This document shows, piece after piece, positions 6,588-60,321 of a stretch of 64,000 bases of DNA; position 1 is the stretch's first letter; every line of letters starts with the position of its first letter. The DNA is from Flammulina velutipes. Its lineage: Eukaryota; Basidiomycota; Agaricomycetes; Agaricales; Physalacriaceae. The position numbers were made by a program, and so were the translations under genes. Location of the stretch: contig CM022375.1 in assembly GCA_011800155.1 (NCBI GenBank), positions 1-64,000 of the forward strand, in the 5' to 3' direction. The notes beneath the pieces are model-generated. The model was not told the DNA's origin and did no database searches. It worked only from the letters and a program-made list of their open reading frames with translations.

Positions 6588-6589
6588 TA

Positions 6590-6920: not shown

Positions 6921-6922
6921 TA

Positions 6923-23996: not shown

Positions 23997-24728
23997 CTAA
24001 AGGATGAGGATGCTGAGCAATGTCAACAGAAGGGTGATCACAATCCCCACAATGCCGCTCAACCTATATAGAGTATCTCAATCAGCGAAACGGCACACTA
24101 CCTCGAAAGGATACAACGTACAACGCGAGAATGACGATGAGGATTCCAGGGAGCAAAACGTTCAAAGCGATGAGAAGGTTGAAGAGAAGGAGCGCGATCG
24201 TACCAATCAACGACAAGGATACTGAGGATGCGTCGAGAGTGGCGCTAAAGCCCTGTTGACGCGGAATATTGAGCGGACATCGAGGTATGGAATAGAAAGC
24301 AAAGGTACCTTGATAGTATCAGCAATGACAGTTCCAGCCTCATTGAGGTTATCCGTTGAGGCAATTCCCTGTCCATCGATACTGGTCAGAGATTCTTGAG
24401 CAGCCGTAAGAGAGGTGATGAGCTCGTCGAAGAGATCATCGTCATTCTCGTCGGTACGCTTGTCACTACTAGTAGCCACGACTGTGTCTGTAGAAAATGT
24501 TATTTTGTATGGAATATCTAAAGGATATAGTTACTCAACGATCTGAGGCAAGATGCTGTCGGTCTGGCCTTTGAGCGTGGTCAAGACAGCCATGATAGCG
24601 TCGGTGCCGTCGACGACGGTATCATTCGTTGTGCGAGAGATGGCGATGTTCTTGGAAATGGAGGCGGGGATGGCTTGCACCATTCCGAAGACTGAGAGAG
24701 CAACGAGTGCGATACGTGAGATGAACAT
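23997..24728 (-). pseudogene. Small secreted protein with hydrophobic C terminus (splice donor lost?)
   Basis: Exon 1 codes a signal peptide (MFISRIALVALSVFGMVQA) and DAIMAVLTTLKGQTDSILPQ. Exon 2 continues DTVVATSSDKRTDENDDDLF and LTSIDGQGIASTDNLNEAGT, exon 3 GFSATLDASSVSLSLIGTIA with a long hydrophobic run, exon 4 GIVGIVITLLLTLLSIL to TAG 23999-23997. Introns 2 (GTACCT...CAACAG) and 3 (GTACGT...ATATAG) fit. Intron 1 fits by frame only if exon 1 ends ...CAGATCG, but the next bases are TTGAGT, where GTGAGT would be expected (24538-24533). The donor thus seems mutated. The layout recalls agaricomycete secreted proteins with HsbA-like N-terminal parts; that family link is tentative. Confidence 0.6.
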
Positions 24729-25880
24729 CGAGAGGAGTAGGTGGTTGAAGAGAAAGTGGGAAGTGTTGGATTACTTTCTGCTGTTTTGCTTCGACACTTT
24801 TATACATCTCGCACCAGGTCTCCTCGGATGTATGACGAATAGACGGCAATGACAAGCCACGAAAAAATGTGTTGGCATAGCGTTCGAACGATATCCAAGA
24901 CTCGTGGCAGCCCATTGAAGTCGCTTTGGCCAAAGAAGCATATCTTCGATCAAAACCACAGGATGAGGCAAAGACACTTGAGGATGCTTGTTCCCAGCCC
25001 GTTGCACTCCAAGTCCATGAGGAGGACGGCGGCATTAGTTGAAGATTTAGAGAGACACGGAGGATTAAGCTGAGTTAGAGGAGAGGATGCTTAGAAAAGA
25101 CCATCAGCCAAGCCATCTTTGGACATCGTTCGCACGCATACTGTCACATATTCGGTATGTAAGCTCGGGGAACGCGGTCGCAGTCGACGTGTCGTCCATT
25201 TGAGTCAGAAGGTTCGCCAGCCTTTCGTTCAAATCTACCTCCATCAAGTTTCCTGTAGTGTCAATATACCTCGGATTTCCCGCGCCTTTGTCTGTTTTCT
25301 TGTTTAACGGTTCGGCCCATTTGCATAACCTCGTCTCACACACTGGAAATGGCAGGATAGACTGGTCATTGTTGACAAAGATGTACGACAATGAGATTCT
25401 AGCTTAGACGATGCCGTCTCCAAAAGATTCCTTGGGCCGAACTCGGACGGCACCGTAAGGCCGATGCAATCGAAGCCTACGCAAGACAGTCAATTCCTGC
25501 GTCCGTATGAGAGAGAAGACTCACCGAAGAAAGATTGGTAGACGCCGGCAAGGTTCCCCGCCTTGAGGGTATATATGCAACGAACCGTCGAGGTTGGATC
25601 CAAAGCATCGGATAGTCGGCTGCTGCTGCTCGAATGTCTGACCAAATGCACCTCCGCATCCAGAAGTAGTATTGTAGGTCTGAGCAGGTCCCTCGTCGAG
25701 GTAAATATTTTATTTGCGATGATCGGTCTTGTCGATATAGCAGAAGCTAGGAGTTTATGAGCAATATCCAAGAGGGCGCTGCAGGCCGGTACACACCCTG
25801 GAAGTCGAAAGTAAACGATGCAAGATCTGGAAAAAATGTTGTTATGAGGGTAGGAGCCAGACAGGGAATGAAACGTACCT
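24729..25880. other. no clearly supported gene
   Basis: Minus-strand frames at 25104-25391 and 25490-25771, and a piece reading DLASFTFDFQ near 25800-25830, may be degraded exons of a membrane or secreted protein gene. I could not join them. Confidence 0.35.
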
Positions 25881-25882
25881 AC

Positions 25883-27000
25883 TTAGCTGGAGCTGTCATG
25901 TCCAAGTAATCGAAGAGAAACGTGTTCCCGCCCGCATCTCAGTCTGCTGTGCTTATTGATGAGGGTGAGAGTACGTGTCGTATATGCTAGTGTGTCGCCG
26001 TTGTAGAATCGACTTGTGCGGCGTTGTTCCGTTTTCAGCAGCGCAGGCCCGCAGCGTCGTCTTCTCGTCGTCGATGGCAACCTCGAAGAGACCGTTGTCG
26101 GGGCCGGAGAATCTCTAGACGTACAGCGCAGGACCTTGTTGGGAGCCAGCAACAGCTCGTTTGGCAGAAGGCAAACGCACCGGTAAAATTGAGACTGATG
26201 GACGTGTCGACCTGCTCCGTTCTGTGATATGTCCCGAGCCACCACGGTGTTGTCTCCAAGTCGACATCAGCGCTGCACGGATAGTGCTTGGTCGGGCGCG
26301 TACGTACGAAAGGATGCTCTCAAAGTCGTCGACGGTCACATTCACGTCGACGGCGGAGGCATCCATGGCTGACGACGCTAAGGAAACACAGCATGGTGTT
26401 ATTCTGAGGCACGCAGTTCTCTCGTTCAAGAGGAAACCGATATGGGCGGTCTCGGGAACCAAGAACTGACCCGGTACTAACAATGCAAGGTCAGATACGA
26501 TATAGATAGCATATAAAAGTGTGTCGACCTGCTGGCTGACACACAGTCTGACACCTTGGTTGATAGTCCCAGGCAGATGGGTGCTGTCCTGGCGTAAGGA
26601 AAAGCAACCCGTAGATGGTCGTAGGAACTGCTTCGCGGTTTGACCTATGTATTGGGCATGATCGTCGACGATATTGGAGCGTAACAGACGAACGCCAGAG
26701 TCCTGCGATCGTCTTGGTCCGTATTCGTCCAGGCGTAACTGCATAGTCGTCAGGAAATGGACACAAGGAGGATGTTGAAAACTGACAACTTTTCATCCTA
26801 GTTCGATGTGGGGCGGAAAGGAGAGATAGGGATGTCTGACCGCCGCACGAGAAGTCTACGGGATGTTTACATGCTGGAAATGATGTATTAATGAAGGGAT
26901 AGAACATCGCAATGGAACGCACCTGTGCCCGCTGCGATCGGTGCAAGTCTCCATGCGCCTTCCATCGCCTCGAACTCGTACTGCGCACACGAGAGGTCAT
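25883..27000 (-). pseudogene. Decayed agaricomycete beta-sandwich membrane/secreted protein
   Basis: Minus-strand pieces LETTPWWLGTYHRTEQVDTS, ISLNFTG, an intron (GTGCGT...CAACAAG), then ALYV, a stop codon, and FSGPDNGLFEVAIDDEKTT and GTTPHKSILYNGDTLAYTT. After this the sequence continues in another frame as GGNTFLFDYLDMTAPAK. Upstream (26500-27000) are weaker pieces such as RSNIVDDHAQYIGQTAK. This pattern of a cell-surface beta-sandwich protein with TGxALYVYG is common in mushrooms. The in-frame stop and the later frameshift indicate a dead gene. The family is unnamed as far as I know. Confidence 0.55.
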
Positions 27001-28430
27001 TCATGAAGGGCCGCGTCCAATGATACCGCGTCGAGAGACATCGAGGGTTGAATTCGGCGTCCATTGCTTGCATCGAACATGTCTGGACAGGTGTCGTCCG
27101 TAGCTTGCTGATACACCGCCCACACTGGCTTCAGTGTCCGTTGGAGGGCCCGATGATGGTATCCACGTAAATGCTTGAAAGCCACGTCAGAATGGACTAG
27201 TTGGATTCTTCCAACGATGCTGAAGGATGCGATGAGCTATGCCAAAGACCGTACAGCGGTACATACCTTTGCCACATTTAAAGAAATGAGTGCAGCAGAA
27301 CGATACACAACGAAAGCGCGAGAATGCAGGCGCCAAAGAATAGAAACTTGGCCAAAACGGAGTCGTTGGTCGTCGGGAAAGACGCGTCTAGTTTGTGCTT
27401 GTTTGCCAGCACACGTTTCTGATGCGCCACCATTTACTTACTTTGCAAGTTATCCTTGCAACGTCGGCAGCCTCTTATAGGTGCTCTAATGTTTGCGCTT
27501 CTTGTCTGCTGACATCTTGGAGGACTGAACTTCAGAATTCTCCATCCAACCCACTTTCTATTTCGCTTCTAGGATGTGCTTCGACGAACTGGTATACTGT
27601 CGGGAGGTCTACGATCCAGGTGTTCTCATGCTGTCCTTTCTGATCCTCTGTTATGTATTACCGACGGAGCTTCGTTGGCGTACCGCTTATCCGCACTATG
27701 AAAGCACTATCTTGCTTCCCATTTCCTGGCATGTCCTGGGCGGATGCTCTTGCTCAATACGCTATGTATCAAACTGTGCGCCTTCTGTTATTCAGTCTAA
27801 ACGGTCACTGACAGCGGCTTCATAGGACACCATCGATGTGAGTATATATATAGCATATATCAAATACTGGCCGTCTGGGCGTGAACTGACTCTTGCGGAA
27901 GACCTGCTTTGCTGGAACGCGATAACCATCCGTGAGCACAACCACTGTCCATACCTTCAAGTTCCTTTTCTTGACGACTCCCTAGATTTTGACCAGCAGC
28001 GAGCTGGATCGACACGGCGCATGACCCCGGACGCACAACCGTTCAAGTACAGACAGCGCGCCACCCGACGATCTTCGTGTCGGAGGCAAGAAAACTACAT
28101 AACGGTCTCTATCGTCTCGTGCTGCTCAGATGTCGTCAGCGGTGCTGGACTATAGCCGTTATTAAGCCATCTATATCCCCTCCTGATGATTTCGACATCT
28201 CAGCTGATGGCTCCAGCTAGAAGGTGCATCTCGGAAACCGACTTTTTCGCACCAACGCGATGGGGAAAAACATCGCGGAGAAGCAAATCTTCAGTACATC
28301 GACTAACGAAAGCGATAGCAGATTTCGCAGGGACTGTACCCTCATGGAGCCACATTCATATCGTCAGATACATATTGTGAGGCCGCTGTCCGCTCACCCA
28401 CAGTTCTCTTAACTAATATTATCCACGTCT
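27001..28430. other. no supported gene
   Basis: Several plus-strand frames (27395-28155) without recognisable domains or consistent exon structure. Confidence 0.35.
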
Positions 28431-28720
28431 TAGTGATTTCTGCCACGACTGACTCCGTTGATCAATATTCATGAAATACATTCCCCAGCGATATTTTCGC
28501 TGGGCGCGCGCATAATCAATCTCTCTCAGACTGAGAACCATGTCAAATTCCTATCATGTCAGGTCCTCGAGGGATTGGTCTTCCTTCACGAGTACCATAT
28601 CGTGCGTCATCATATAGAAGGAGCGAACATCTTCATTGCCCTCGATGGCAGCGTGAAGCTTGGCGATCTCGGTAGTGTGATACTCCAGAAGGCGGGTATG
28701 TTTCCCAATCGACGGTAGTA
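28431..28720 (+). pseudogene. Protein kinase catalytic-core relic
   Basis: The plus frame reads LSCQVLEGLVFLHEYHIVRH, HIEGANIFI and DGSVKLGDLGSVIL. This is the catalytic-loop-to-activation-loop part of a Ser/Thr kinase (canonical HRDIKGAN and DFG). The catalytic Asp of HRD is replaced (RHHIEGAN) and DFG reads DLG. No N- or C-lobe remainder is evident and a stop follows soon after. It is an inactive fragment, unrelated to the alpha-kinase inside the transposon. Confidence 0.7.
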
Positions 28721-29040
28721 CAAAATTGACTGAACGATTACGGGGCAGGCAAGGTGATTTCTATGAAAACGATGTTCCTGGAAGCTTTACATGGCTCGCC
28801 CGGCAAGCGGACGAACATCTAGTGCTTCGGAATCCTGGTTGAGATGATGCATCAAGGTCACCCATGGCGCAACAAAACTCTGATCAGAGTCATGTTCATG
28901 GTCAGCTATCTTCTTTATATTGAATATGAGCACCCGACTAAATTATGAATTACAGCGACCCACATGGACTATAACCAAAGAAAAGCACGTACCGGACTTG
29001 TTTAATTGCTCTCCTGAGACTTGTCTGCTGTGTAGGATCT
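28721..29040. other. no supported gene
   Basis: Left flank of the transposon insertion; nothing recognisable. Confidence 0.4.
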
Positions 29041-29047
29041 CCTAGGC
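29041..29047. repeat. Target-site duplication, left (CCTAGGC)
   Basis: Perfect 7-bp direct repeat with 37797-37803, directly abutting the inverted-repeat termini. The bases further out differ between the two flanks. Confidence 0.85.
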
Positions 29048-29316
29048 TACGGTAGGCGGATTGGTCGCAGTTGATTTTGATTTTTTTGATTTCGGATTTG
29101 ATCAGCCGAGTTCCGAGATCGGCCATTTCCGGCGTGTCATCAATTATTTCGCCACACTATTTCTTGTACACAGCCCCGGGCTCGGGGTCCTAAGTGGGCT
29201 TAGAGTGGATTTGCGTATAAAATCACCTTTAAGGTGTCCTACAAATGAAATCCTTTACCCAGTCACAATGGGACCCATAGAACACATTTTGGCGGCAGAT
29301 TTGCTTGGTGTCACAT
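29048..29316 (+). repeat. Left terminal inverted repeat (269 bp)
   Basis: Matches the reverse complement of 37528-37796 throughout and diverges just inside TGGTGTCACAT. Contains internal palindromes (GCCCCGGGC, CCTTTAAGG). An open frame of about 89 codons runs through it in both copies but is explained by the repeat, not by a gene. Confidence 0.95.
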
Positions 29317-29448
29317 TATGTCACACATAAGCGGCAGTGGCTACAAGTAGTTGCGTGAGCCAGCAGCATTACAAAGTACGAAGATATGCATCACTTCAGA
29401 AAGACACGGAAAGGTAGAAACCAGTCATATTCATATTGACTGTCTATT

Positions 29449-31884
29449 TTACTCATCATCACTACTCTCTTCCACCGCTGCAGTCTCTTTTTTCAGTGAA
29501 GCTAGTCCAAGTACCTTACATCGTCGGTTGCAAACATGCTGGTCCCTGAAGATTTCAATACCTTCCTCCCCGTGATCACCAAGAACACTGTCTCTATAGC
29601 ATTGTCAGTTCAAAAGAGATTTAGAATGTAATTATTCTTACCCAAGTACTGTATGTGTCTGAAGGTCGAACAAGATATCCTTATTTTTGAAAGAGGAGGC
29701 TAGGCGTATGATAGTGAGTTATTGACATGGATGACCTGGTAAGAGCATTACTGACTTTGAATATCTGCCAGAACTATGGTTTCCTTAGACCACTCATACA
29801 CGAAGTGGGCAAACGTCGTCAACACAGCACCAAGTTTAGAGTTTGCATAAGAAGGATGACAATTTGTGCCGCTCCATTTATTAGTGTCCTTGGTTCGCAT
29901 TTCTTCCAAGAGCCAAGCAAAAGCCCACGCATTATCGTTCGGAACTGTGGCGTCATCTATGCTTGGGAAAGTAGAGGCAAGCTCTTCAAACTCCTCAATC
30001 ATCGCACCTGAAGCTGGCGATGGTATTCCATCCTTTCTGATAATCTCTAGACCAAGATGAATTTTGGCTACTTCGAGTCCTGTGAAAGGGATTAGAACTC
30101 TCTCTTTGCAGACAATAATAGTTTCGCGCTCACGATCTTCACAGACGTCTTCATTTCCTGATACCCTGGCATGTTCGAAGAATGCCGCAAGGAAATACTC
30201 CATTTGAGCCAGACATTTTGCCTCCTTCTCAACTGCCTCGCGATTTTCCAGAACACCGACAATTCCTTTGCCCTTGCCGATATTGAAATAGCGTTTTGCA
30301 GCGTAGGGGTTCCCTTGAACACGAGCCTAAGGTATACCGAATAGTTAGTAAGACTAGAAAGAAGAGAAGAACCTGAGACTTACCTTGTAGACATTTTGGC
30401 TAAGGCCCTGCGCATATAGTGCGTCCGAAATTGTACCAGCTGTCAGAGCAAGCTGTCCGTCTTCCAAATCTGGCCATTGAACAGTAGGCTGGCCACCTTT
30501 GTCTACCAAGATTGTGGCGAGCGCAAATTGAACCGGAGTAGAACCACCAATGGGCCGGAATGAGGATACCATCGGAGGGATAGATGCTATATGTGAACAA
30601 TAAGTGAATATATAAGGGGAAATAGTGTTTGTCTCACATCGTAGCCGTTTGGTAGAGGTAGACGAAGTCAGCATCTCTGATTGAAGATCCTCTTCTCGCT
30701 CTTTTCGCTTTTTTGCACGAGCAGTCTTCTGTTTCCCGGTCAACATGTAGGTAGGCACTTCACATCGCATCGTCTCTTCAAACTGCAATATATGACATAT
30801 GTTAGCTCTTAATTAGCAAACATTATAGATATCGCACCAGATCAACTTGAATCACTGCGTTCAAGAAAATGAAAGGAGCACGAGGTGATAGAGATGGTGG
30901 TGTTCGCTTTTTAAGATCAGGATTCAAGAGTGGCTCATGGATCTCGTAAAACTGCTTGACAGTGCCTGAGTCGCTTCCTGGTTCTATGACTCGATCATGC
31001 ATGAAGCGGAAACTAATGAACTGCCTGACTTAGACGTCAGATCTGGGTTTTTAACGAGACGATTCAAGAAAAGGAACTGACCTGGTTAAGCTCTCTGCAG
31101 TCTGCTTGTCCCAAGACGTATTCAGAGTGGCAACGAGGTCATCCAGTGCTTCTATCGAGTTATATTAGACTCTACCTGTGTAAGAGCGGATAGAAGAAAG
31201 GGAACTAACCACTCATAGACATGTTCTCATCGAATGTCCTCGAATATATTCCCAGGCCGCTCTTCACATCAGTTGTCTTACCAGCCACCGGGTTAAGCCA
31301 GATTTCGATCATCCTTGATCCGTTTGGACCAATTCTCGCGCCAGCTGCTGCCTTGTTCTTGCGAAGACCTTGTTGTGTCCTAGCCGACATAAGATTCTGA
31401 CGCTCATGTAGCTGAAGTTCAACAGCTCGGCGTGCTAGCTCGTCTGGTGTAGGAAGAAGAGGAGGTCCCATAAGCCCAGCGATACTTAGGCTACCACCAA
31501 TAGCTGGTAGCGCAGCAGCAATTGTACCACTGTTACTTGCACCGTTTTCGAGACGAGCTGCATTCTGCTGCACACAACCTCCACATAAAGGCGGATTGGC
31601 GTTTGGAGAGATGCTCTTTGTAACCGTACAGCAGTCAACACATTGCGGCCAGCTCTATAGAGATTGATAAATGTGAGATTACAATATCAATATCAAAGTG
31701 AAGCCGAAAAACATACCTCTTTATCTTCTCTATCCTGTGGTGAAGTTGATTTGCTTAGAAGCTCGCATCGCACACATAGACCTAGCCAAGACTTGTGACG
31801 AAAGGAACGATTGCACTGCAGATGTGAGTTCTCTGTTGATGCGCATATTTGAGTTGCCGGAGTCGGGATAGATTGTGGCGCCAT
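29449..31884 (-). CDS. Alpha-type protein kinase (transposon cargo)
   Basis: About 550 residues in roughly nine exons, from ATG 31884-31882 to stop 29451-29449. The N terminus has two Cys-rich stretches (CNRSFRHKSWLGLCVRC, CVDCCTV...NPPLCGGC) that look like a zinc-binding module. A middle region carries FISFRFMHDRVIEPGSDSG. The catalytic part starts with FRPIGGSTPVQFALATILVD and contains AAKRYFNIGKGKG (nucleotide-binding Lys), TFAHFVYEWSKETIVLADIQ (catalytic Asp), LFDLQTHTVLG, GDHGEEGIEIF and a zinc-binding HVCNRRCKVLG. These are the MHCK/EF2K alpha-kinase hallmarks, and all key residues are present. It would phosphorylate Ser/Thr in alpha-helical contexts; substrate unknown. Alpha-kinases are expanded in mushroom genomes. 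Its position inside the TIRs makes it a cargo or element-encoded gene. Confidence 0.85.
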
Positions 31885-32496
31885 TGATGTAGACGATAGT
31901 AGAGGTGCAAATGGCAAGCATAGACAGACGAACGCGTAGACTGTCACTGTAGACGCTGTAGACTGGACAAACAAGTAGACAAGTGGGGGGGGTAGGGGTA
32001 GGAGGTGGATGAATGGATGAACGACGAACGAGCCGAATGAGGCTGATGAGGCCGAACGAGACGACGAATGTCAAATGCCGAACGAGTGAGACGAGACAAC
32101 AAATAACAAAGCGTAGAGGGTAGAAGAGAAGGTGGACCGATGAATGAGACACAGAGATAGATACTTTATACAACCAGCTTTTTGAGTTTACCTTGACTAT
32201 TCATGCAAACCTCTCATTGTGTCGCGTGTCATTTATCGTACCTTAGCCCGATAATCTTGGACATGTACCTTAGTCGGCTAGATTGGTTATGCAGTCTTTA
32301 CTGTCAGACAGTTGAGTGAGCAGTAGACCGGGCAGTTCAGTCGTACCTTGGTCATCACTATTGTTCCGCACCATTCTGGGTGGGACGGCCATAGCACCGC
32401 TGGCTGGCTGCTGCCTATGAGCCTATGACAATGATCTATGACGGCTTTCGCATTGAAAATCGATACGATACGTTACAGGACGACGACGTTACAGTA
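31885..32496. other. internal spacer of the transposon
   Basis: Promoter side of the kinase gene and 3' side of the transposase. Contains a G/C homopolymer-rich run (about 31984-32010) and GAACGACGAACGA-like short repeats (32028-32075). No gene seen. Confidence 0.5.
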
Positions 32497-34096
32497 CTAC
32501 ACGGTCAATGAGAGAATACAAAGCATTTCTTCGAAAATCTTCCACCCTGACCTGAGATGCATCACAGGTGCGCCAATTTGCTGGTAAACACCTGACGCCA
32601 CCTCCGAAAATTCAGCATCAACAAAGGCGAAGCATTCCTCCCTGGTGCGAGGCAGTGAAGCACGGAGTGCTGTCACTGTATCAGCATCAACCTTGACACC
32701 ACAGTGTTCTAAGCTGTATTTCTGCGGGTACTTGAAGATTTTCTCTGGTGTCGTTCCAGAGGGCAGTATCTTCTCGTTTTGCTTGCGTACCCGATGATTG
32801 TTCCACCAGTCCCGGAAACGGTCTGCTTCCTTCTGGATGATTACTGGCCATATCCAATTCCATAGATTTCTGGTAATCGAAACAAAATATGTAAGTGCGT
32901 GCATCAAAGGAATAGAGACAAGATAGACACATACACATGAAGAGGATCAAGACCATTAAAGCGCCTCTCTGACGTCCCTTTCATTAATTCTTGGTGAATA
33001 TCGTGCCCATTGAACTTTCGCATATAGAGCCATGACGACTCGATCGGTATATTATCTGTACTGGCAAGTGCGGCAGTAGGAGGTTGCTCCTCAAAGCTGA
33101 GGGTAGGTGTGTACAACCGTCTGGTATTCATTCATTAGCATGTATATATAGAAGAAAGTATCTAACACTCACCGTAGAGTTATTTGCCCAGCTCGAGCAT
33201 GTCCAGTTTCGTTGCCGCCATCGACTGTGATTTGAAGGGGTATTTCTAATATAACAGATGAGTTTGATATACACAAATGCACGGTAGCAAGCACAGATAA
33301 TGACATACCACCATAGGCATCAACCACATCGAAGTAGCAGTGAGCCACCGTTACCTCACAGCGTCCATTCGGTACGACCTGTTCAGCAACAATAAAGCCA
33401 CTTGCGTGGCAACGCATACCATAGATGTGTACACCAACTGGTCCCATACGCAGAGCCAGTGGTCCTAGCTTCTCATGCCCGTCACAGTGAAGTTCTTGAA
33501 AAACACCGATTCCATCGAGATGTCCGCGTTTTTTTGACACTCGCTTTTTGCCGGGGAATCGCTCGTTGAATCCACTGGGAAAGTTATCATGCATAATCTT
33601 GCGGACCATATCTCTGAGTAGGTTATAAGTAGAATCAACATTGAAGAACAGAACTTGAACTTGCCTCGGAATGAACACAGCTCGATCCAGTCTAATCTTG
33701 TCTTTGATAGTTGAAGGGCCATTGGTAGCACTCTCATTCTCAGTTACGTACTCACTGACAAGTGCAGTAGCAATAGGAAGTGGAGGTGGAAGACGCGCAG
33801 TACCGACACCAAACTCACGGTTGAGTCGTTTCAGTTTGGTAAGTCTAGAAGCATGTTAATATAGTAGAAGTCCAACAAGAACAGTGTACGCACCCTATTC
33901 TATATCCATGCTCGTCTGCCAATACCTCTAGGCGCTCAGGAAGGGTGTATGCCTTTTGTGCAAGCAAATGTAAAACTGGGCGCAAAATGTCATCATCGGG
34001 CCCTAGTTGACTTGTGAGTGAAAAAAGGACACTGATTCTTTTTACTTGCTTACTTTTTCCGTTCTCTCTCCCGTTATTTCCTAGAGCATTGACCAT
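32497..34096 (-). CDS. Integrase-fold DDE transposase
   Basis: Exons on the minus strand from ATG 34096 to stop 32499-32497. N-terminal helical region LRPVLHLLAQKAYTLPERLE and KLKRLNREFGVGTARLPPP (HTH-like), then the linker MVRKIMHDNFPSGFNERFPG. The catalytic core has a first Asp in LHCDGHEKLGPLALRMG, a second Asp in TVDGGNETGH and a Glu in NIPIESSWLYMRKF about 40 residues later: a D,D-40-E arrangement like retroviral-type integrase cores. It is followed by RNLWNWIWPVIIQKEADRF and WWNNHRVRKQNEKILPSG, typical of a fungal integrase-like protein family. All three acidic residues are present. It should cut and join the TIR ends and produce the 7-bp staggered duplication. A zinc-finger domain is not seen. 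Confidence 0.8.
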
Positions 34097-34210
34097 ATGA
34101 GCGAGCGCGCACTGCAGATGTGTGCGTGGTGGAGAAAAGCAAAAGTCCGGTTACATCCTTTTCTGGAAATATCAGGGTCACCTGACAAACACTCTGTTCA
34201 TTGCGGCCAG

Positions 34211-34845
34211 AAATGGAGACAGAGACCTGGTGGGAAGCACTTGACTCAGAGTGGTTACAACTGGAGAAGGACATACTTGCCTTTCTGACTCCCTTGACAA
34301 GTACGTTCAGTTTGACACGAGTCACTGCCTCTACAAGAGTACTTAAATTTTTCCCGGCAGTTGCCAACTCTTCATTCTTCCAACCAGCCAGTCCGACTTT
34401 GTCAATTCATTCCAACCTACTGCCAAACTTGCCGGTCAACCTTTCCCCTTCCCTACTCCGAGTTCCCTATGTACCCAACTCCTCGTCTACATCTATGTCC
34501 ACCCACATAGGTCCATATGCTCGTATCCGGACCAACTCACATCTGCATCTGACAAAATGGCCAAAACCCTATACAGCCTCTGCGATAGTACAAGGATTCC
34601 ATTATATGGATTATCTTCGTCTTTGTACCTCGTCGCGAGCCGGCCTTGTCGTTGAGGAGGCATTTCACAGAGCATTCCCAGATGCAGTATATGTCAAATC
34701 AACATACAGCTATACACGTCGGATATTCAGGAGTGTTGAGGCCACTACACTCTTAAGCATGTTTGTTGCTGGTGGTGACTCAGAAGACATGTTATGGAGC
34801 ACATTTGTACGTGCGGCAAGGAAGCAGGGCCTTGTGACATGCTGA
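34211..34845 (+). CDS. Small ORF divergent from the transposase
   Basis: An open frame starting METETWWEALDSEWLQLEKD and continuing to AARKQGLVTC over about 210 codons, with FHRAFPDAVYVKSTYSYTRR near the end. It is the only plus-strand frame of this length in the element, starts about 115 bp from the divergent transposase start and ends about 38 bp before the convergent gene. Placement argues that it is real. No family recognised; it could be an accessory DNA-binding or regulatory protein of the element. Confidence 0.5.
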
Positions 34846-34882
34846 AGAATAGTTGAATTCGAGAGAGGAAGCGGAATATACA

Positions 34883-37422
34883 TTAATAATAGTCTAAAAA
34901 TCCTAATGGTATACCTTGCGCTAATTTCGAGTCTGCTGAGATCCGTCTCCGTTTTACTGCAGGTGGCTGCGCCACCACCGTATTCGTACAATGTCGCAGT
35001 ACGGCAACAGCATTCGGGCTAGCATCATCTGAAGATGGAACAACAGTCGCAGAGTCATCATCGGCATCAGACGAAGCAACAACAGTATCATCCGAGTTGA
35101 TGTTCTCATCGTTGACAATGTCACGCTGACGCTTTCCCAACGCAGACTTGCTCTTTTTGGGCGGTTTTTCCTTGCGAGCGGCCTTGCGTTGCCCAGGCTT
35201 GATCAGAGTCCGGCGCTCATATTGGCGTTGTAGTCGATTGGCGAGATGGTGGCTAGCCGAAGGGTCTTTGTAGCAGAGTATAATGCTGCGAGGTATCAGC
35301 AACTGATAACATATGAGAATGGCATGAAAGCTATACACACCTTCCCTCAATGATGTGTGCCACACCACAAAAGTCGAGTGGTCCGACAGCCCACAGGTGA
35401 GTATGGTTGACGATATGCGCGAAGGTTTGATGATCACGCTTCGAGCCAGTCACTAATGTCGCTTTGTGGACTCGTGGTCTATGAATTAATTAAATGAGGA
35501 CTAGAACAACGAATAAACAGAAAGATACGACTGACTTGGCAACGTTAGGACTATTGGGCGGACGTGAATTACTTGGGAAAGGCGGCAAGAGACACCACAT
35601 TGATTTGTCGGAGGTGTCATACAGAAGCGTTGAGACCCAGGTGGCTTTCATAGCTGACACATCCAGCATGAGAGGGTCAAAGTACGAGCGAGGCTGAAGA
35701 TACGTAGTGCAGTCTACATCTGTTGAGATGCCTAGTGCGGGCAGAGGTGAGAGTCTTGTTGCCAGAAAATAAGAAATCACTCATACCGCGCTTCAAGAAA
35801 TAGTGGTCGAGTGGACTATCAGTCCAAGCAGAGGTTATAGTCTCATCCTGGACACCCTTCTTGAATCCGAAGATCAAATGGAAGAGGTTCAGAGGTTTCG
35901 CAAGAGATTCTGCAAGATAAGTCGGCTCAAAAACATCGTATAGACCGCTGGCTGGTAAGCGAGCAAACATTGGCCTAGTATTGGCGTCTTCGAGCCAAGT
36001 CTAGAGAGTAGATTGGTAAGAAGACTAGAGTGTATCAAACCAAAATAAGACTGACAAAAAATCCATCGTATTGATCCTTCATGCGGGACGACATGAAAAT
36101 CCGTTGCTTCCCATGGAGATACAACCAGTCCATATAACGCAGACGCTCTTTATTCGAGACAGCAAGAAAGAAGTTTTCCTTCAGGTGAGGAACGATGAAA
36201 CGCCTAATTCGAATATGTATGTTAGCGCGAGAAGAGAGAGGCAGGGAACACGATAGCGCATATCACATAGAGGACTTACCACATATTGACGTGAGCATTG
36301 GCAGCATGACTGTAGAACGCTTCTAGTAGTCGGGCAAAACGTGACGGAACGTCGAACAGTTCTGCCTCTGTGATCCAAAGCGAAAGTCCTGGAAACATGT
36401 TCGAGTCAATAAGATAGCAAAGTCAAATACAGAAACAACTCACCAGCTCGGAAAAAGATCTCTACAATAGTATAGACGCCAATACCTCCCCAGATATAAG
36501 GATTGCTACGTATAGCATGAACAGCTAGACGGTCTCGTTTGGCTATCTTTTTAGGAAGAGTGACATCGATGGCACTGTCACTACAAGAATCCGCATATTT
36601 TTGAGAGTGGAGGGAACATGCTGCCCAGGTAACAGCAGATGTGACAAAACGAGAAAAGTCGGCATAGATGTCGATGTGCTGAGCGGGTAGGTCGGAACGT
36701 GTGGTGGCGTAGATAGGCTACGAAGAGATAATGTTCAATACTCCCTGCACCAGAAGGATAGATGATAACGCACTTTAAACATATTATCATACGTTAGCAA
36801 CGCAATAATCCACTCGCCGAACATCAATGCCATTCCCACCTTGAATCCGCGATCCTACGGATAGCGCGAGAGAATATTAGTTAATACGCAGGAGCATGAG
36901 GAGGTATGGTGTTACCTTGGAGCTAACCTTTGCAATAGAGTTGTTCCACTGCGCGGTGTTGTAAACTTGAAGAGACGTATGGAGAAGAAGTTGAATCTGC
37001 TTTCAAGTTAATATAAAGGGAAGATCGTATCGTTGAACACGCACCTGCAGCCATAGGGGCCCATTCGCCTTAGATACCATCTCTATTATGATATTCCGTG
37101 GATTGAAGTGTATGTCTTTGAGTGTCAGATGCGCTTCAATGATTGGGCCAGCAATGGTCGGAGGGTAGACTGGCGCTTGCGCTGATTTTGGACCACGCCG
37201 TATCTTAGAGTTTGGCTGAAGCGCATAGGGTAAGCCAGCTAGTATGTTGGGATTGGCGGACGCGTCGTTTTCCAGAGCTGACTCCGCATCACGTTCTTTC
37301 TGTGTAGCATCCACATAAATGTCTTGCAGCTTCAGATCCTGATAGTTGGGCTTTGACTTGACAGACTGGAACCAGTTTCTAGCTATCAGTGTAGAGGAGA
37401 CAAGCTCAGCATATTCAGGCAT
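34883..37422 (-). CDS. Large conserved-looking hypothetical of the transposon
   Basis: About 690 residues in roughly nine exons, starting MPEYAELVSSTLIARNWFQS (ATG 37422) and ending GIPLGFLDYY. Segments in order include GLPYALQPNSKIRRGPKSAQ, DRGFKVGMALMFGEWIIALL, AIRSNPYIWGGIGVYTIVEI, SRFARLLEAFYSHAANANMW, LRYMDWLYLHGKQRIFMSSR, ASGLYDVFEPTYLAESLAKP, DVDCTTYLQPRSYFDPLMLD, KSMWCLLPPFPSNSRPP, WAVGPLDFCGVAHIIEG and CYKDPSASHHLANRLQRQYE, then a basic, Lys-rich and acidic tail resembling a nuclear localisation region. I recall similar uncharacterised proteins in mushroom genomes but know no function. Its conservation within a complete element suggests a role in transposition, such as target choice or a structural partner of the transposase. 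Confidence 0.7.
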
Positions 37423-37527
37423 GGCAGCGAGATGAAGGATGATCGAGAACGTCGAGATGGTGGAGATGGTGGAGATCAACGAAGACGCGTTTACGCGACC
37501 GTCACACACAGTCACACGCACATGCAG

Positions 37528-37796
37528 ATGTGACACCAAGCAAATCTGCCGCCAAAATGTGTTCTATGGGTCCCATTGTGACTGGGTAAAGGATTTCATT
37601 TGTAGGACACCTTAAAGGTGATTTTATACGCAAATCCACTCTAAGCCCACTTAGGACCCCGAGCCCGGGGCTGTGTACAAGAAATAGTGTGGCGAAATAA
37701 TTGATGACACGCCGGAAATGGCCGATCTCGGAACTCGGCTGATCAAATCCGAAATCAAAAAAATCAAAATCAACTGCGACCAATCCGCCTACCGTA
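37528..37796 (-). repeat. Right terminal inverted repeat (269 bp)
   Basis: Inverse complement of 29048-29316. Ends ...CCGCCTACCGTA directly before the CCTAGGC duplication. Confidence 0.95.
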
Positions 37797-37803
37797 CCTA
37801 GGC
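37797..37803. repeat. Target-site duplication, right (CCTAGGC)
   Basis: Same 7 bases as 29041-29047. Confidence 0.85.
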
Positions 37804-38224
37804 GCAGGATTTGAGGGCCGTTTAGTTCACAGTTATTGCCAGAAGATGAATGGCCGTGGGCTGGTGGAAACTGTGGTAGTTCAATAACTGAATGATTTAA
37901 TCAATAGACAACTACTTCCGGCGCGCATATATCAAGAGATCGAGGAGGATACGACTGCTGTACTCACACGTGCATATGTGGGTCTCCGTTGTGACTCTGG
38001 AATCTACATATAGTTAGGCATGATATGTACCAATGGCAATCACCCAATCTGTTCTTGTAACCCCGTATCGGGGAAAGTGTGCTCGATGTGCTTTCGCAAG
38101 ACAAGGGAAGGTTGGTTATATCGCTATCGCGGGAGCAAAGAGATGTCGTGTAGTTTCTATGTGTATGATAGTTACATTACAGAGAGAGAGAGACTCAAAA
38201 AGAGTCGTACTTTGTTCATACTTA
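37804..38224. other. no supported gene; Pol III-type T-run
   Basis: Right flank of the transposon. At 38197-38201 the minus strand carries TTTTT, about 24 nt after the tRNA-like gene, fitting a Pol III terminator. Confidence 0.45.
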
Positions 38225-38311
38225 TGACCACCGCAGGGGTCGAACCTGAAATCTCCTGATACTGATACTTGTAAATCATAGTCAGACGCGATGCCATTTC
38301 GCCAGGCGGCC
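38225..38311 (-). tRNA. Intron-containing tRNA-like gene, identity uncertain
   Basis: The minus strand folds as a cloverleaf: acceptor GGCCGCC with GGTGGTC (two G-U pairs), D arm GCGA/TCGC, anticodon stem TCTGA/TCAGG, five-base variable loop, and T arm CAGG-TTCGACC-CCTG with one mismatch at the stem base. A 15-base intron is inferred after position 37. Read this way the anticodon is ATG, which would be unusual (His normally uses GTG). The body (TCTGACTA...TCAGGAGATT) is more like fungal tRNA-Arg with ACG, so this may be a mutated Arg gene or tRNA pseudogene. A T5 terminator follows. Confidence 0.55.
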
Positions 38312-38428
38312 TGGACATTGGGTCCGCCACCGGAGAGTCTGTGCCGACGATGTCCCGGGCCGAATCCACCACGCTCACGTGGCACAACTGCCCATTGCCT
38401 TTTACCGCCATCTTCCAACCATCGACTA

Positions 38429-39435
38429 TGGTAGCAAACACCAGAAAGCGACGAAAGGTCGCCTCCAACGGCGATGACAACAAGGAAAATGCAGTCGTTA
38501 CGCGCAAGGGGCGCACCGGTAAACAACCTTCCAACGAAAAGGATGCAACTTTCGCCGGACTGCCTTTCGATGTCCTCTTGGAGGTACGCCCAATTACGGG
38601 CCTCGTAGACGCGCATTTATCTGACCACTATAATATAGATAGCAGCCTTCTGCCTTCCGCTGGACGTTCTGCATTTGACACTGGTCAACAAAACTCTACG
38701 GGCCACATTCATGAGCAAATCATCCGCCTCTGCCTGGAAGGCAGCTCGATCCAATCTGGAAGGATTTTCACCACCATTTGAAGGAACTTCGGAGCCCGCC
38801 TGGGTGCATCTGGCATTCGTCAAGATCTGTCATGTGCGCCACATTAACATTTCACCTCTCTTTCGTTATCTAACGACACGGCCATTAGTTCTGCTGGAAG
38901 AAGTTGGTTGTGATCCCCGAATTTGTCTTCCAATGTCGCATATGCCCTGCATGCGCCAAGATACAGTACGACTCCATCCTTGTTTTTGAACGGTTGATCA
39001 ACGTCTTTGTTCAGTTTGATCGAGGTTAGCGAAGCCTTGGCTACTCGAGGTAGAGACAAGCACGACATGCTTCGGGAAATCTTCCTCAACGTCGTCCCCA
39101 CCCGTTCTATCAGTACGCAACCATCGTTCCCTCTGTCCGCATTATCTGACATTCCGACAGCTGCTCCAGGCGGTAAGAAGAAACTCCACCATGCTATCAG
39201 GAAGGATTTTCTGGAGGCGGAACAACGCTTCCTCGGCGATTCGATGACAACAGAGCTTCTAGCTGAACATCAGGACAAGATGCTCCGATTTCGAGAGGTA
39301 ACTTTCATTTACTTCTGACATCGTCGACATCCGAGTCTGAGTATCGTCACAGCATATCGAGGTCTGCAACGCCTGGCGAGTCGCATGTGATGACCAGCGT
39401 GAGAAGGAGCTTGAAGAGATGAAGTCTAGACGTCG
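38429..39435 (+). pseudogene. F-box protein gene, N-terminal half
   Basis: Start ATG 38429, basic N terminus MVANTRKRRKVASNGDDNKE, then the F-box FAGLPFDVLLE | IAAFCLPLDVLHLTLVNKTL (intron GTACGC...AATATAG) and the agaricomycete block FMSKSSASAWKAARSNLEGF. After an intron (GTGCGC...CCATTAG) a Cys pattern CHFCWKKL...FQCRICPACAK follows, as is usual in this mushroom F-box family, which recruits substrates to SCF ubiquitin ligases. Later exons read KKKLHHAIRKDFLEAEQRFL and HIEVCNAWRVACDDQREKEL to EMKSRR at 39435. There the family sequence stops and a GH6 fragment begins. The missing continuation (IWDRLAALGYQEDLEAM) is found in matching phase at 55276 on the other strand. Confidence 0.75.
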
Positions 39436-39446
39436 GTTACCTACAG

Positions 39447-40150
39447 GAAACTGACTGTGGCGAGATTTTCGGTGTTGTCATCTACGACTTACCGGGCCGA
39501 GACTGTGCTGCAAAGGCTTCCAACGGTGAACTCAAGGTTGGCGAACTGTCCAGGTACAAATCTGAGTACATCGACCGTAAGTTTGGTTTAATATTTAATA
39601 TTCTTTGAAGCCATTGTCTCATATATTCCAGCCATCGTCGCAATCATAAAGAAGAACCCAGGCATTGCTATCGCGGCTGTCATCGAACCCGATTCACTCC
39701 CCAACTTGGTGACCAACGCTAACCTTACTACCTGCCAGCAGTCCGCTTCGGGATACCGTGAGGGTGTCGCATACGCTCTCAGGCAGTTGAACCTGCCCAA
39801 CGTCGCCATGTACATTGACGCTGGTCACGGTGGTTGGCTCGGATGGAACGACAACCTGAGTAAGTCATATTCCTCTCCATCCCAAACTTTCATTCACGTG
39901 GCCCTCCAGAACCTGGTGCTGAAGAACTCGCCAAGGCTTACAAGGCTGCTGGCTCTCCCCAAGCTGTCCACGGTGTTGCAACTAACGTTGTCTACTCCGG
40001 GAGTAGCGGTCTGCTCTTCTGACCCTTCCATGATATCTCGAAGGCGATCAAAGGCATGAGGACGAGGGTGATTCCCGAGGAGGTAGCTGCTCAATCCTCA
40101 GTATCGCTATCGACACTGGTGGCTTCGACGTTGTCGTAACGATATTCAGT
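39447..40150 (+). pseudogene. GH6 cellobiohydrolase (Cel6A-like) fragment
   Basis: Starts abruptly with ETDCGEIFGVVIYDLPGRDC, then an intron around 39578-39632, IVAIIKKNPGIAIAAVIEPD and NLPNVAMYIDAGHGGWLGWN. A further intron (GTAAGT...CTCCAG) leads to PGAEELAKAYKAAGSPQAVH and GVATNVVYSG, after which a stop ends the frame. Both active-site aspartates of the family (in DLPGRDC and IEPDS) are kept. The signal peptide, cellulose-binding module and N-terminal catalytic part are absent, and the C-terminal part carrying the putative base is reduced to a weak trace (IDTGGFDVVVT). It cannot be functional. Confidence 0.8.
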
Positions 40151-40502
40151 CTACGGTATGTCATTCATTATTCAAAGCAGTCGGAACTTGGTGTTGGCGT
40201 TGGTGCTGGAGAGTCGAGAGACCGCTGAATGACTATTGGCGTTGCATGTATCTATGTTGGTTGGTGGACTTGGAGCAGTATCAGCGGCGAGGGGGATGGG
40301 AATGAGATGAACTCGGATTAGGATCGCGGATCGCGGAATCGAGGATAAAGTGGGGACGCTACAGGACGCTACATGCAGGATGATAGTGCAGATCGGATTC
40401 GTGGGTCAAGCTTCAAGCGTAGGTTGTTTACGCGTGTACGCTAGGGATACGTGCATGCACGTGGACGGAGAGGTCGATGGGTTGTGGAAGGAAGAGTCTC
40501 AG
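40151..40502. other. no supported gene
   Basis: GC-rich low-information DNA before the MITE; nothing recognisable. Confidence 0.4.
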
Positions 40503-40504
40503 TA

Positions 40505-40835
40505 CAGCGGATTCCACAATAATATGCACAGTAGCAACCGTGTAGCGTCTAGGAAATCCGTCCAGGAACGGTGGTTGTCAAGTCCGAAATAGGTATTTCT
40601 ACATGTCATTCACTCTCAGTTTACTTCAATTTCACTGGTGAAACCTTAGGAAAGTTGAGATCCAATAGACTGTGTATACATGAGGTCTTCGAACGTCACA
40701 ACTTTGTAACAACGGTATGTTTTGTACTCAAGAAAGCACCCAAGCCGTCATCTCGGACTTTTTAGTCACCGTTCCTGGACGGGTTTCCTAGACGCTACAC
40801 GGTTGCTACTGTGCATATTATTGTGGAATCCGCTG
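40505..40835 (+). mobile_element. 331-bp TA-flanked MITE, copy 2
   Basis: Same length and nearly the same sequence as 6590-6920, in opposite orientation, flanked by TA at 40503-40504 and 40836-40837. Terminal inverted repeats of about 69 bp. No transposase. Confidence 0.85.
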
Positions 40836-40837
40836 TA

Positions 40838-41823
40838 ATACTAATACGGGGGTCGTACGTCAGATAATCATCGGTCTGTTGCAAGTCCAAATAGTAAGGT
40901 TAGGTTGCGTTTGCGGCATAGTAGATACTTGCCACGACACGTGTTGGGACGCAAGGCCTTTGCATGGAAAACATATATGATTGATTCAATGAAGTCTGAG
41001 CGGCCCGGCAGAGAGGTCCAAAATTCCGGCATTCTTGTAGTGAGATGGAGAAAGGGATTGTAATGATAGGCAAGGATAGGCAGCGCAACGCATGGCTTTA
41101 GGTGTGTGGGCCTGGGCATGCATACAATCATTATCATACGTGAAGAGAGATGGCCCGAACACGAATGGTATACGTGAATTAACCTCGGGCTACGCCGGGG
41201 TATTGCTGTTGTAAGTTGTAATTTGTAACAAGTTTACAGGTTAGCTATCGAACGGTCAAGACAGGGAAATCATATCAGTAGAAGGAAACCATCTCATCGA
41301 CATCGATGGGGAAGAATAGTGTTTTTGGCAGAGCGGTGTTTCTGAATTAACATTAGAGAGAGGGTGCGAAGGTTGCAGTGCAAACTTGAATTGACAGTCG
41401 AGAGTATTATTTGGGCAGGCATGAGGCCTAGGAGACCAGGTTTCTTGTGAAAGTCTGACAAATGTCCTGAACTGGAGAGATTCTCAAGGATTCGATGAAG
41501 GACAGCAACGTTCTGGTGTCTAATATAAAGCGGGGATCATGAAGATCAAGAGGTCGTTGTGACGAAATGATGGAAAATGAAATTGAGCACGCTTCAGACA
41601 CCGAAGACACAATATTGAGGCATTGAATGCAATGTTTCATTCCGACGCGCCTTGTTCGTACCGAAATGAGGGAGAGACAATGCCGTGCGTCAACGCAACA
41701 GAATAAACAAAGAGTAGCGTACAATATCCAACAAAGAGATTGTATTGCCTGTCCGGGAGAGGACTGAAATCGGTGTGCAAACTAACCTAAAAATAAATAT
41801 TATTTCTGAAAAAGACGCCCCCG
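40838..41823. other. no supported gene
   Basis: Minus-strand frames at 40868-41137 and 41428-41724 lack motifs. This could be a long 5' or 3' untranslated region of the plus-strand frames that follow. Confidence 0.35.
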
Positions 41824-43340
41824 ATGAGATCTGTTTGTGATCGGGTCAATCAACCACCATATCGGGCCACGACCATGCGCGGTGATCTTGAGCCAGCGTC
41901 CCTCATTTTCTTTCCTCACCGCCGTCTTAAAGTGCACTTACTCCAGCTAGCCAACGTTCCCCCAACGTTCCTACAACTCGCTATCTGCTTTACTTTCGTC
42001 CTTACTTTCGCCATGTCTTCTTGCGACGCGCCCAAAGGCATTCCCTCCAACCTACTCGCTTTTCCCAGTCTTTCCTCTTCGTTGCACGCGCTGCCTCAAG
42101 CAACGAACCTTCAAAATGTGTCGCTGCACCCGAACATGTATGGCAAACTCGCGAGCGAAGCAAAGGTGCACTTTCTCCATTATCGTACGAGGCGTTCTCT
42201 AAACATACCTTACAGCTTCAAAAGGCTCTGTCGCGAACCGCCGCCAAGGGTTCTCCCCAACCGTCTCCTTATCCTACACGTCCAGTGCGTATACTGCCTC
42301 CACCACATCTCAATGCCGCTGACCTTGTCATTTATTTTGTTATAGACAACACCTTCGTCGCAATGCTGTGATTCTTCTCACCTAATGATGCGCAAACCGG
42401 TACGTCTTTACAGCTCCCCGCCGCCGTGGACCCCCATGGGTTTGGTGAGTCGAACTGTTGTCTGATGCGTGCATTATTGCAGCAAAAATCAAAATGAAAC
42501 GTCGCGTTCTACCCCCTTTCCACTTCCTGTTCATTTTGTTTTCGTTTCGGGACTTTGTAGACAAGGGCTCTGTCCACTAGTCTCCAGCTTCGCGCTGTAT
42601 TCGTACTTAGCTTTCGTCGCTTTCGTCATCACCTGGCATCCAGCATCATCATATAGACTACCATGCATGTTTCCCTCTTCCTTATATCTCCTACGTCTTT
42701 CGTTTCATCTTGGTTTCATTTGGGCTACAATCACTTTCTCTCTGTATAATTGGGTACTTTACACTCTAGACATCTGCAGGGATTTGTGATATTATTCGTC
42801 CGGCGGCTATTCTTTGGGTTCTACTATGTCCGATTGTGACTTGCTACCGCCTCTCGCCTTTCGTAACTCATCTCCCTGACCACTGATGACAGAACTGTAC
42901 GACTTCTTTTACTCCCGCTTGATAAGTACACGGGCGTCCGGCTCTGTTACTCGGGTGTTCGCCACTACCCGCTGAAACATACATACACTTACCCTCCGCC
43001 TGGTTCGCGTTGACCTCTTTCGTCGACGCGGGTCAATTACCACACTGTCCTCGCTCCGCCCCGGTCCACTGAATCCCATGCATCCAGTGATTGCCTTTCC
43101 AAAGAAAGGCACTCATCAAATTTCCATCCCGAAATCCCGAGCTCATGCACGCGTTCCCTTGGACACAGTACACGTTTGGCGGTGAAACCACCGCTCTTCG
43201 CACCGACAAGGCGGCGCGAAGCCCAAGCAGGCTTCCCGCAGATTTGTTGTCATAATCACGTCGCCGTGCTGATATCTTCGGCCCACGTTATGGTTTCCTG
43301 CAGGTGTGATGAACCCTCCTTTCAAATCTTAACAGTCCTG
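41824..43340 (+). other. uninterpreted plus-strand coding candidates
   Basis: Open frames at 41824-42345 and 42021-42371 overlap. The one containing MSSCDAPKGIPSNLLAFPSL from 42014 looks most protein-like, low-complexity Ser/Leu/Pro. It might be the 5' part of a gene that continues near 43650-44192. Exons could not be joined and no family is recognised. Confidence 0.3.
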
Positions 43341-57900: not shown

Positions 57901-59110
57901 ACAGCGACCAGACGAGACCACTGCCAACATGGTCCAGCAAACACAATAATCTGCACGAATGACGACGGTATGGCCAAGGCCCTCCGTTGCTTTTGAGCGC
58001 GGTAGTCCCGCTGGGTAATTGTTCCTTCAGCGTCAGTTCAAAAGTCGTAGTTTGGAACACGACGTCCACTCCGAAGGACGGTGTACCGAGATGGGAATGG
58101 GCTTTCCACAGGCAGTAGAGATTTGGCTAAGTATGGGTCAGTGGATGCTGGTAGCGACCAGGCAGCAAGGCAGTTCATGAGATCCAGATTCTGTGAGTAC
58201 CGGGATTTTGTTCGATGCAATCTACATGATCATCAGATGTCCAGACTGCATACCGGAAAGCTCAGGGGAGTACATGAGTCAAGGCCTTTAGACCACGGCC
58301 TCCGCCAGAAACCCCTATTGTATTCCTCGAAGTAGCGCCTTCTGACCCGAGGGAAGCCATAGTCCAACACATACCATTGCTTCTCTCGCGTCGGGTTCTC
58401 GATTCTGAACGCGAGAGTAGCCAGCTCGAACGATGGTGAAGTTAACGCCTTGTCCAAAAGATGGAGAGCAGCGAGCAGTTTGTCATCGATGGGTTTCTCC
58501 AGGAAACGGATGAGATTTATCCTAATGTCGCGTAGGGAATGCGATTGATTTGTAGGGTTTTGGCGTAGCATGTGATAGTGTCAATGTCAACGACTGTTTC
58601 CTCAAAACTGTAAACAGACAGAGGTATCTGGAATTCGAAAACTCGGAGACGGAAGGTAGGGAGATGATATCTCGCGGGGTGGGGTGACTGGAAGATCGAG
58701 GGTTAGATCGTTGCAGGCTGTTTGAAGAAAGAAGACGAACTTACTCCTTGGTTAGCATCTGATATACATGTCCATCGATGGATATCAGAGGAAGAGAGCC
58801 GTGAGGGATGAGGAGATTGCGTCCAAGTACAACGGCGGCGTCCAAGGGAGGTGTAGTTCCTGCATGCACGTTGCCTGTGATAGTAGACGTTCTTAACGAG
58901 CATCTTTGAGAATGGAAGAGGAACTGATAATTAATGTGAGGATTAGTGCTGCGATGGCTGGTACACCGTTGATGCAGGCTGCTATACCCTACGTAGAAAT
59001 CTTGACTTTTTGGAAGCGGTGCGTGCGGATTAGAGGGAGGAAAGCAGCGCATGCCAGAGCGAGTGAAGATAGCTTGTCGGTGTCTCAGGAAGCGCGACGA
59101 GCTCATTGAA
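57901..59110 (-). other. unresolved minus-strand coding candidates
   Basis: Pieces FELTLKEQLPSGTTALKSNG (about 57990-58060), LEKPIDDKLLAALHLLDKAL and TREKQWYVLDYGFPRVRRRY (58330-58520), FEETVVDIDTITCYAKTLQI (58560-58610) and LPLISIDGHVYQMLTKE (58741-58795) read like exons of one protein. The first two frames do not join without a stop. No family could be assigned. Confidence 0.35.
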
Positions 59111-59215
59111 AATGAGTTGTTTTATTTCAGTTAGTAACGTCATGATGGTAAGAGGCAAGAGGCGATATCCATCTTTGCCTCTTACCACCATCACCCACGG
59201 GACGTACACATAGTA

Positions 59216-60321
59216 ATGTCTCCCTACATCAGACAGCTGGCGACGTCACCTCTCCGTCAAGAAATGAGCGCTCTGGAACATTCCTCGGCAGCGTGGCCAA
59301 TCCATCCATCGCGAGTCGTTGGGGACACCTAGGACGGGCAGGACGCACCAACAGGGACAACGACAGTCGCATCCGACAGGGTTTGCAAGATCTTCGCAGA
59401 CGCCGAAGCACCAGCCGCGGCTTTCGATGTCAGGCCTGCAGTCTCCTGCAAGAGGCGAATTCGTGAACGGTGAGCTCGACTTTGGGGCCCTAAGTTTAGC
59501 TGCTCATCATCCATGTAGACAAAGAGAACACGTCGCAGGACCAGCAAATGTTCAAGATCTTCCCCCATCCCCACAATTCCAAGGCGACGCCACGGATACC
59601 ATCCCGACTGAATGAACAGTACCAGACGTTGCAGAGACGTCGTTCGTCGCACTCGGACGTTGGTGGTGAGGAAGATGACGGGCTGGAAGACGTTATCAGG
59701 AAGGTGAGGGAAGCCAGCCAGCTCAAGGCTCAGCTAGTAGAAGAAGTATGTCGCGGTTCCCTTTCTCCACGCATATATTCACCGCAAACGCAGAGAACGA
59801 CAATTGCGAACCTTCGGGCTGACTTAGCAAGCTCGCAGAACTCGGCTTTCACCGCGAAGCAACGCATATCCATCCTGGAATCTGACAAGGACCGTCAATC
59901 CGCGCAAATCCAGACGCTTACCCGCAGATCTCAGCCAGACGAAAACGGAGCTCGAGCAGACCGTCAAGGAGCAACATCACACTGGAGAGACACTATGTGA
60001 ACGCGACGCTGATATGACACGTCTGCGGAACGACCTTCAAGTCGCGAACGACAGGTATCGGGAGACGGAGGATCGCGTCTCCAAGGTCAAAGAGCATGCC
60101 AGGAAGAGCTTGGAAAACATCGGGAAAAAGTGTGTTCCCTAGAGCTCTTTATTCTTATCGTTGACCGCTCCTCCAGCTACACTAGCCTCAAAACAGCCTA
60201 CGACGAACTCAAACTGCATTTCGACGCTTCCGAAGAGCATTTGCAGCGAACAAAGGAAGAGATAGAAGACTTCAGGATATTGTCTGATAGACAACTCAAA
60301 CGTGAGTCGTATATAACATGA
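59216..60321 (+). pseudogene. Coiled-coil protein gene, plus strand, one frameshift
   Basis: After an uncertain 5' end (first ATG considered 59216) the sequence reads SSQTPKHQPRLSMSGLQSPA, intron (GTGAGC...CATGTAG), DKENTSQDQQMFKIFPHPH, DGLEDVIRKVREASQLKAQL, intron, then heptads IANLRADLASSQNSAFTAKQ and QSAQIQTLT. At 59921-59923 one extra C shifts the frame, and ADLSQTKTELEQTVKEQHHT, RLRNDLQVANDRYRETEDRV and VKEHARKSLENIGK follow in the new frame. A last exon gives YTSLKTAYDELKLHFDASEE to a stop at 60321. Long parallel coiled coil, function unknown; motor or spindle-related proteins have this look but nothing specific is seen. The single-base lesion could be a sequencing error. Confidence 0.5.

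Follow-up and report, generated by a model that had tools for sequence, protein, structure and literature searches.

The DNA analysed here is the stretch from position 1 to 64,000 of contig CM022375.1 of Flammulina velutipes (assembly GCA_011800155.1, forward strand); this whole stretch of 64,000 nucleotides is called the window below, and it contains a DNA transposon with an alpha-kinase gene inside it. Contigs of the source genome assembly are labelled C1 to C23, and the window element lies at C8:29-38k. Its ends are terminal inverted repeats (TIRs) of 269 nt each, at 29048-29316 (plus strand, starting TACGGTAGGCGG) and 37528-37796 (minus strand, ending CCGCCTACCGTA), which are 100% complementary. 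They are flanked by a 7-bp target-site duplication, CCTAGGC, at 29041-29047 on the left and 37797-37803 on the right, leaving an element of 8749 bp between the two copies. An earlier note on this stretch had described the identical termini and the perfect duplication and had proposed a complete, recently moved transposon whose TIRs enclose an alpha-kinase; all of this is borne out by the results given below.

The interior of the element is occupied by three uninterrupted spliced reading frames (exon models built by hand), all on the minus strand. The alpha-kinase gene (29449-31884, 9 exons, 663 amino acids) encodes a Cys-rich N-terminal stretch followed by a C-terminal PF02816 domain, which scores 72.5 bits against a cut-off of 21.3. 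This domain, which the protein shares with TRPM7, eEF2K, and MHCK-A, displays the ADIQ (D..Q) and H.C..C motifs, also retained in the kinase matches on C4 and C7; we take D..Q to be catalytic and H.C..C to bind zinc. The element kinase differs from those three proteins in being transposon-encoded and in having its own Cys-rich N-terminal part, and a homologue search with it, in which 7996 candidates were scored, returned none at an E-value of 0.001 or better. The second gene (32497-34096, 6 exons as modelled) encodes a DDE transposase of 439 amino acids, or about 422 if a GC-AG intron indicated by homologues is spliced out. The integrase fold and the three acidic residues attributed to it by the earlier note are both recovered: D172, D238, and E281 are invariant across a 32-row alignment, and the fold read from the structure model of a relative (P0001) is of the integrase type, while a PDB profile search with the alignment gave a single chance-level match only. 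The third gene, gene3 (34883-37422, 10 exons, 670 amino acids, starting MPEYAE), encodes an Fpg/Nei (NEIL1)-like protein, an identity that the earlier note had missed.

The insertion can be seen directly in the assembly. A search of the genome with the left end of the element yielded four matches, namely the query itself, the second end, a single end belonging to a partial copy at C8:424115-424389 (97%), and 48 bases on C23 that terminate at the target site. On C23, both flanks meet at one CCTAGGC: the left flank equals window 24124-29047 at 100%, and the right flank corresponds to window 37797-42779 at 99.94% over 4984 bp and 99.86% over 704 bp. Window 58000-59500 also matches C23:107120-108622 at exactly the offset of the insertion flanks; C23 therefore represents either an alternative haplotype or a very recent duplicate, without the 8749-bp element. 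The insertion, kinase included, is thus a single precise recent event, or else the element was precisely lost from C23; since the TIRs are identical, a young insertion is favoured. TIRs that are this long and 100% identical could in principle be produced by a misassembly or a segmental duplication with no transposon involved, an outcome that the earlier note had held in reserve for the case that target duplications were lacking elsewhere; the empty site with its single target copy rules out a segmental duplication as the source of the TIR pair, two further elements have TIRs and perfect 7-bp duplications of their own, and we consider such an origin scarcely credible. With occupied and empty sites within one assembly, the element is well suited to transposition assays.

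A second copy of the same family (family A) lies at C8:419.8-424.4k. Its kinase side is missing, it breaks off within the transposase gene, only one TIR was found, and its gene3, read by the exon frame of the window copy, contains an in-frame stop; being truncated inside the transposase and carrying a gene3 with a stop, it was rejected as a natural kinase-free element. Two complete elements on C2 and C4, with TIRs unlike those of family A, form a second family (family B). The C2 TIRs (65680-65922 and 76193-76435) are 99% alike and the C4 TIRs (904164-904415 and 913741-913991) 98% alike; both elements end in TATAG..CGGTA and are flanked by perfect 7-bp duplications, CTTTGTC on C2 and TCATGCG on C4. 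Compared with the window proteins, family B shows 33-44% identity for gene3, 43-57% for the transposase, and, for the kinase, 25-39% over longer segments and up to 73% over 11 residues, the matching segments between the families being mostly about 25-57% identical; the family B genes are known here from protein matches, not gene models. The transposase is inverted relative to the kinase and gene3 in family B, compared with family A. All three of the complete elements, from two families, thus combine 7-bp duplications with matches to all three proteins, and other copies containing the kinase do exist.

The earlier note had counted four gene-sized coding regions, and three of them remain. The fourth, a plus-strand open reading frame of 219 amino acids at 34186-34845, is unsupported as a gene: changes between two copies number 7, 6, and 5 by codon position, with no third-position excess, and no match to it exists in family B. 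A search with the family B TIR gave eight matches, of which four are the known ends, one is a single end at C1:714k (72%), and three are fragments (80%) surrounding a gene3-like copy at C9:1784k (C9:1783731-1786372). Two further observations concern these elements. In the C2 element, the kinase region is interrupted by an insertion, a 1.2-kb near-perfect palindrome, or foldback (C2:74582-75808), at a point where the window copy has an intron; the C4 copy is without it. A further 36 bp resembling a family B terminus (C4:903569-903604), about 0.55 kb beyond the end of the C4 element, are perhaps the end of another copy.

No domain was detected in gene3 by a Pfam search, a PDB profile search with its alignment gave no match, and a PF06831 search of the genome found nothing; since gene3 is present in this genome and yet unmatched, the PF06831 model is blind to it. 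The structure model of a relative (P0096) agrees in fold with Fpg/Nei (NEIL1) over about 240 residues, and an hhalign comparison gives a profile match to Fpg/Nei, at about 9-16% identity. The aligned start reads MPE in 16 of 19 rows, the window copy included (in two of the 16, P0106 and P0109, it is internal to the annotated protein); of the other rows, two are without that part and one (P0108) is different. The MPE start is also found in the gene3-like copies at C4, C9:1784k, and C2:106k (C2:106146-108189). In Fpg/Nei enzymes, Pro2 and Glu3, which follow the initiator Met, are catalytic residues. By modelled fold and profile, then, the product is of the Fpg/Nei (NEIL1) DNA-glycosylase type, with an H2TH-like GIGxYxxxE segment as a further resemblance; unlike these enzymes, it has long insertions and a C-terminal tail.

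Several points count against the account of gene3 preferred below. The mean predicted local distance difference test score (pLDDT) of the P0096 model is 65.6, and the hhalign match leaves the MPE start uncovered. There is no clear conserved Lys matching NEIL1 K54, in a region where the alignment is uncertain, and the H2TH-like segment reads GIGV where NEIL1 has GIGN, an Asn to Val change. Between the two family A copies, gene3 differs by 12 synonymous and 14 nonsynonymous codons (7, 6, and 13 by position), at best a weak sign of constraint. The lack of a clear Lys counterpart and the GIGV would suit a catalytically dead protein of Nei fold that binds DNA, for example as a TIR-binding or target-selection factor, whereas an MPE retained so widely, among the aligned rows as in the three genome copies, speaks against it; we regard the dead protein as a serious possibility, albeit not the probable one.

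As for classification, passages of PMC10045372 describe IS3EU transposons as having TA..TA termini and duplications of usually 6 bp, those of IS481EU being about 4, 15, or 25 bp, and the IS481EU/IS3EU/GingerRoot group as having a DDE transposase without the HHCC zinc motif. The elements studied here have TA..TA termini in all three cases (TACGG..CCGTA in family A), and an integrase-type transposase with no conserved HHCC motif, no His or Cys before D172 being invariant in the 32-row alignment; their duplications are 7 bp in all three. We call them IS3EU-like. Closest to them are the fungal IS3EU transposons carrying TET/JBP genes, for which alpha-kinases have already been mentioned (Kojima 2025, PMC12730594): in the parts of that paper concerned, these elements also hold a DDE transposase and an alpha-kinase gene within TIRs, and the ends of rust IS3EU families, TAYGG..CCRTA, match those of family A. 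They differ by their 6-bp duplications and by the TET/JBP gene between transposase and kinase, where a Nei/NEIL-like gene is found here; transposase and kinase are opposed in them, as in family B, whereas both point the same way in family A. A genome search for TET/JBP returned six weak matches below cut-off, none near these elements. Styx of Zymoseptoria, related to IS3EU, is likewise large (about 7.9 kb) and has an integrase among its four coding sequences, but its TIRs measure 36 bp and its duplications 6 bp, and the passages on Styx name no alpha-kinase or glycosylase (PMC10853768). A superfamily distinct from IS3EU could be argued from the consistent 7 bp, against the 6 bp usual in IS3EU (PMC10045372), and from a window transposase that falls below the PF24764 cut-off; given the TA..TA termini, the missing HHCC motif, and the ends and alpha-kinase shared with the rust and TET/JBP elements (PMC12730594), we find this unlikely.

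The association of kinase and transposase extends beyond the three complete elements. A PF02816 search of the genome gave 8 matches at 8 places, and all 8 lie no more than 5 kb from a place of this transposase lineage, of which there are 12 (10 from one search, plus C5:2878k and C3:147k from scans with homologue proteins), this total being a lower bound. PF24764, searched as a control, matched 30 times at 17 other places, and even the closest of these is about 103 kb away from a kinase; since the PF24764 loci are all more than 100 kb from alpha-kinases, the link is specific to this transposase sub-lineage. The 17 places themselves (e.g., C21:41785 and C9:517562) have integrase cores that belong to a different lineage. 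Transposase and kinase diverge from the window copy in matching order, family B being closest, then C7, then a group of loci on C8, C3, and C5, which is what co-inheritance predicts, if on few points. Within that group, the loci at C8:1523501-1530425 and C3:182402-189300 are 83% identical over about 7 kb; of the codons changed between them, 115 are synonymous and 31 nonsynonymous in the kinase region, and 40 and 16, respectively, in the transposase (three frames each, chosen by eye).

Four findings stand on the other side. Only 3 of the 8 kinase loci lie within proven element ends. The 8 are not independent, consisting of family A, C2 with C4, C7, and four related loci (C8:1525k, C3:184k, C5:2873k, and C3:142.8k). 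A search for ends, as TIR or duplication, at C7 and at these four loci gave none that was convincing; these loci may have decayed, or their termini may be of another kind. Lastly, 4 of the 12 transposase places are without a kinase match: the truncated family A copy (C8:420k), a fragment (C9:2013k), and C12:1378k and C8:169k, both known from search matches alone. For the C8/C3/C5 kinase loci, the best end candidate, an 8-bp GATGCAGA repeat at C8, was rejected as unconvincing.

Our preferred explanation, to which we give a probability of roughly 75%, is that of a young cut-and-paste IS3EU-like transposon, autonomous by gene content and generating 7-bp duplications, for which the kinase and the Nei/NEIL-like protein are helpers. 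The transposase would cut and insert the element via its long TIRs; the two helpers would most likely promote element spread, the kinase by tuning the transposase or host proteins of repair and chromatin, and the glycosylase-like protein by binding or excising bases in the element that are modified or damaged. The earlier note had seen the kinase as cargo. It does lie inside the element, but since kinase and gene3 both recur in a distantly related second family, they look like working parts rather than one-off freight. Captured host genes, tolerated as passengers and useless for transposition, would account for the gene3-like copies at C9:1784k and C2:106k, where transposase is absent from the fetched stretch, and a third gene3-like match (C3:3341735-3343966), known from a search match alone and with no transposase match listed there, also tells against a helper role. 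We nevertheless judge passengers improbable: matches to all three proteins are kept in both families in spite of different TIRs and 43-57% transposase identity, synonymous changes prevail in the C8/C3 kinase-region frames, and each kinase found adjoins this transposase lineage.

Among the possible roles of such helpers, we prefer counter-silencing or help with repair at the element, as the TET/JBP dioxygenases carried by related elements in fungi suggest by analogy. A more specific version, which we regard as tentative and on balance doubtful, would make the Nei/NEIL-type base-excision enzyme and the alpha-kinase a counter-silencing module: the glycosylase would clear the element of modified or oxidised bases, as partner of or substitute for TET/JBP, the kinase would control the glycosylase or host factors, and the alpha-kinases of mushrooms and rusts would largely be transposon genes. 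If gene3 is active, base excision would join the ways in which transposons may resist silencing.

The earlier note had further suggested that kinase cargo explains the expansion of alpha-kinases in mushrooms. Within this genome the case is strong, and its alpha-kinases would be mostly or wholly genes or remains of this transposon lineage, the element being a mobile source for them; one would then predict that alpha-kinases track this transposase lineage and not host phylogeny. PMC4469406 reports a strong expansion of the alpha-kinase family in rusts and its absence from Microbotryomycetes; two columns of its table give PF02816 counts of 79 and 39. None of the papers surfaced by our literature searches deals with a Nei/NEIL-like protein encoded by a transposon, and the only one seen to tie alpha-kinases to transposons was PMC12730594, whose main text has "glycosylase" once, for host demethylation. 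Within the reach of these searches, both the link of kinases to the transposase across the genome and the glycosylase-like partner are new.

Some features of the flanks deserve a brief mention. Counting the query, window 58000-59500 matches the genome 33 times, in part near contig ends (C23:170k, C1:28k, C17:0.3k), and is perhaps subtelomeric. The comparison of C23 with the window also revealed two inverted copies, about 99.7% identical, of a 336-bp sequence, at 6587-6922 and about 40503-40838, possibly a small non-autonomous element. Immediately left of the insertion, the reading frame at 28437-28718 resembles what we take to be a fragment of an ordinary protein kinase, and in the right flank, the plus-strand frame at 39592-40059 is presumably akin to an exon of a GH6 cellobiohydrolase.
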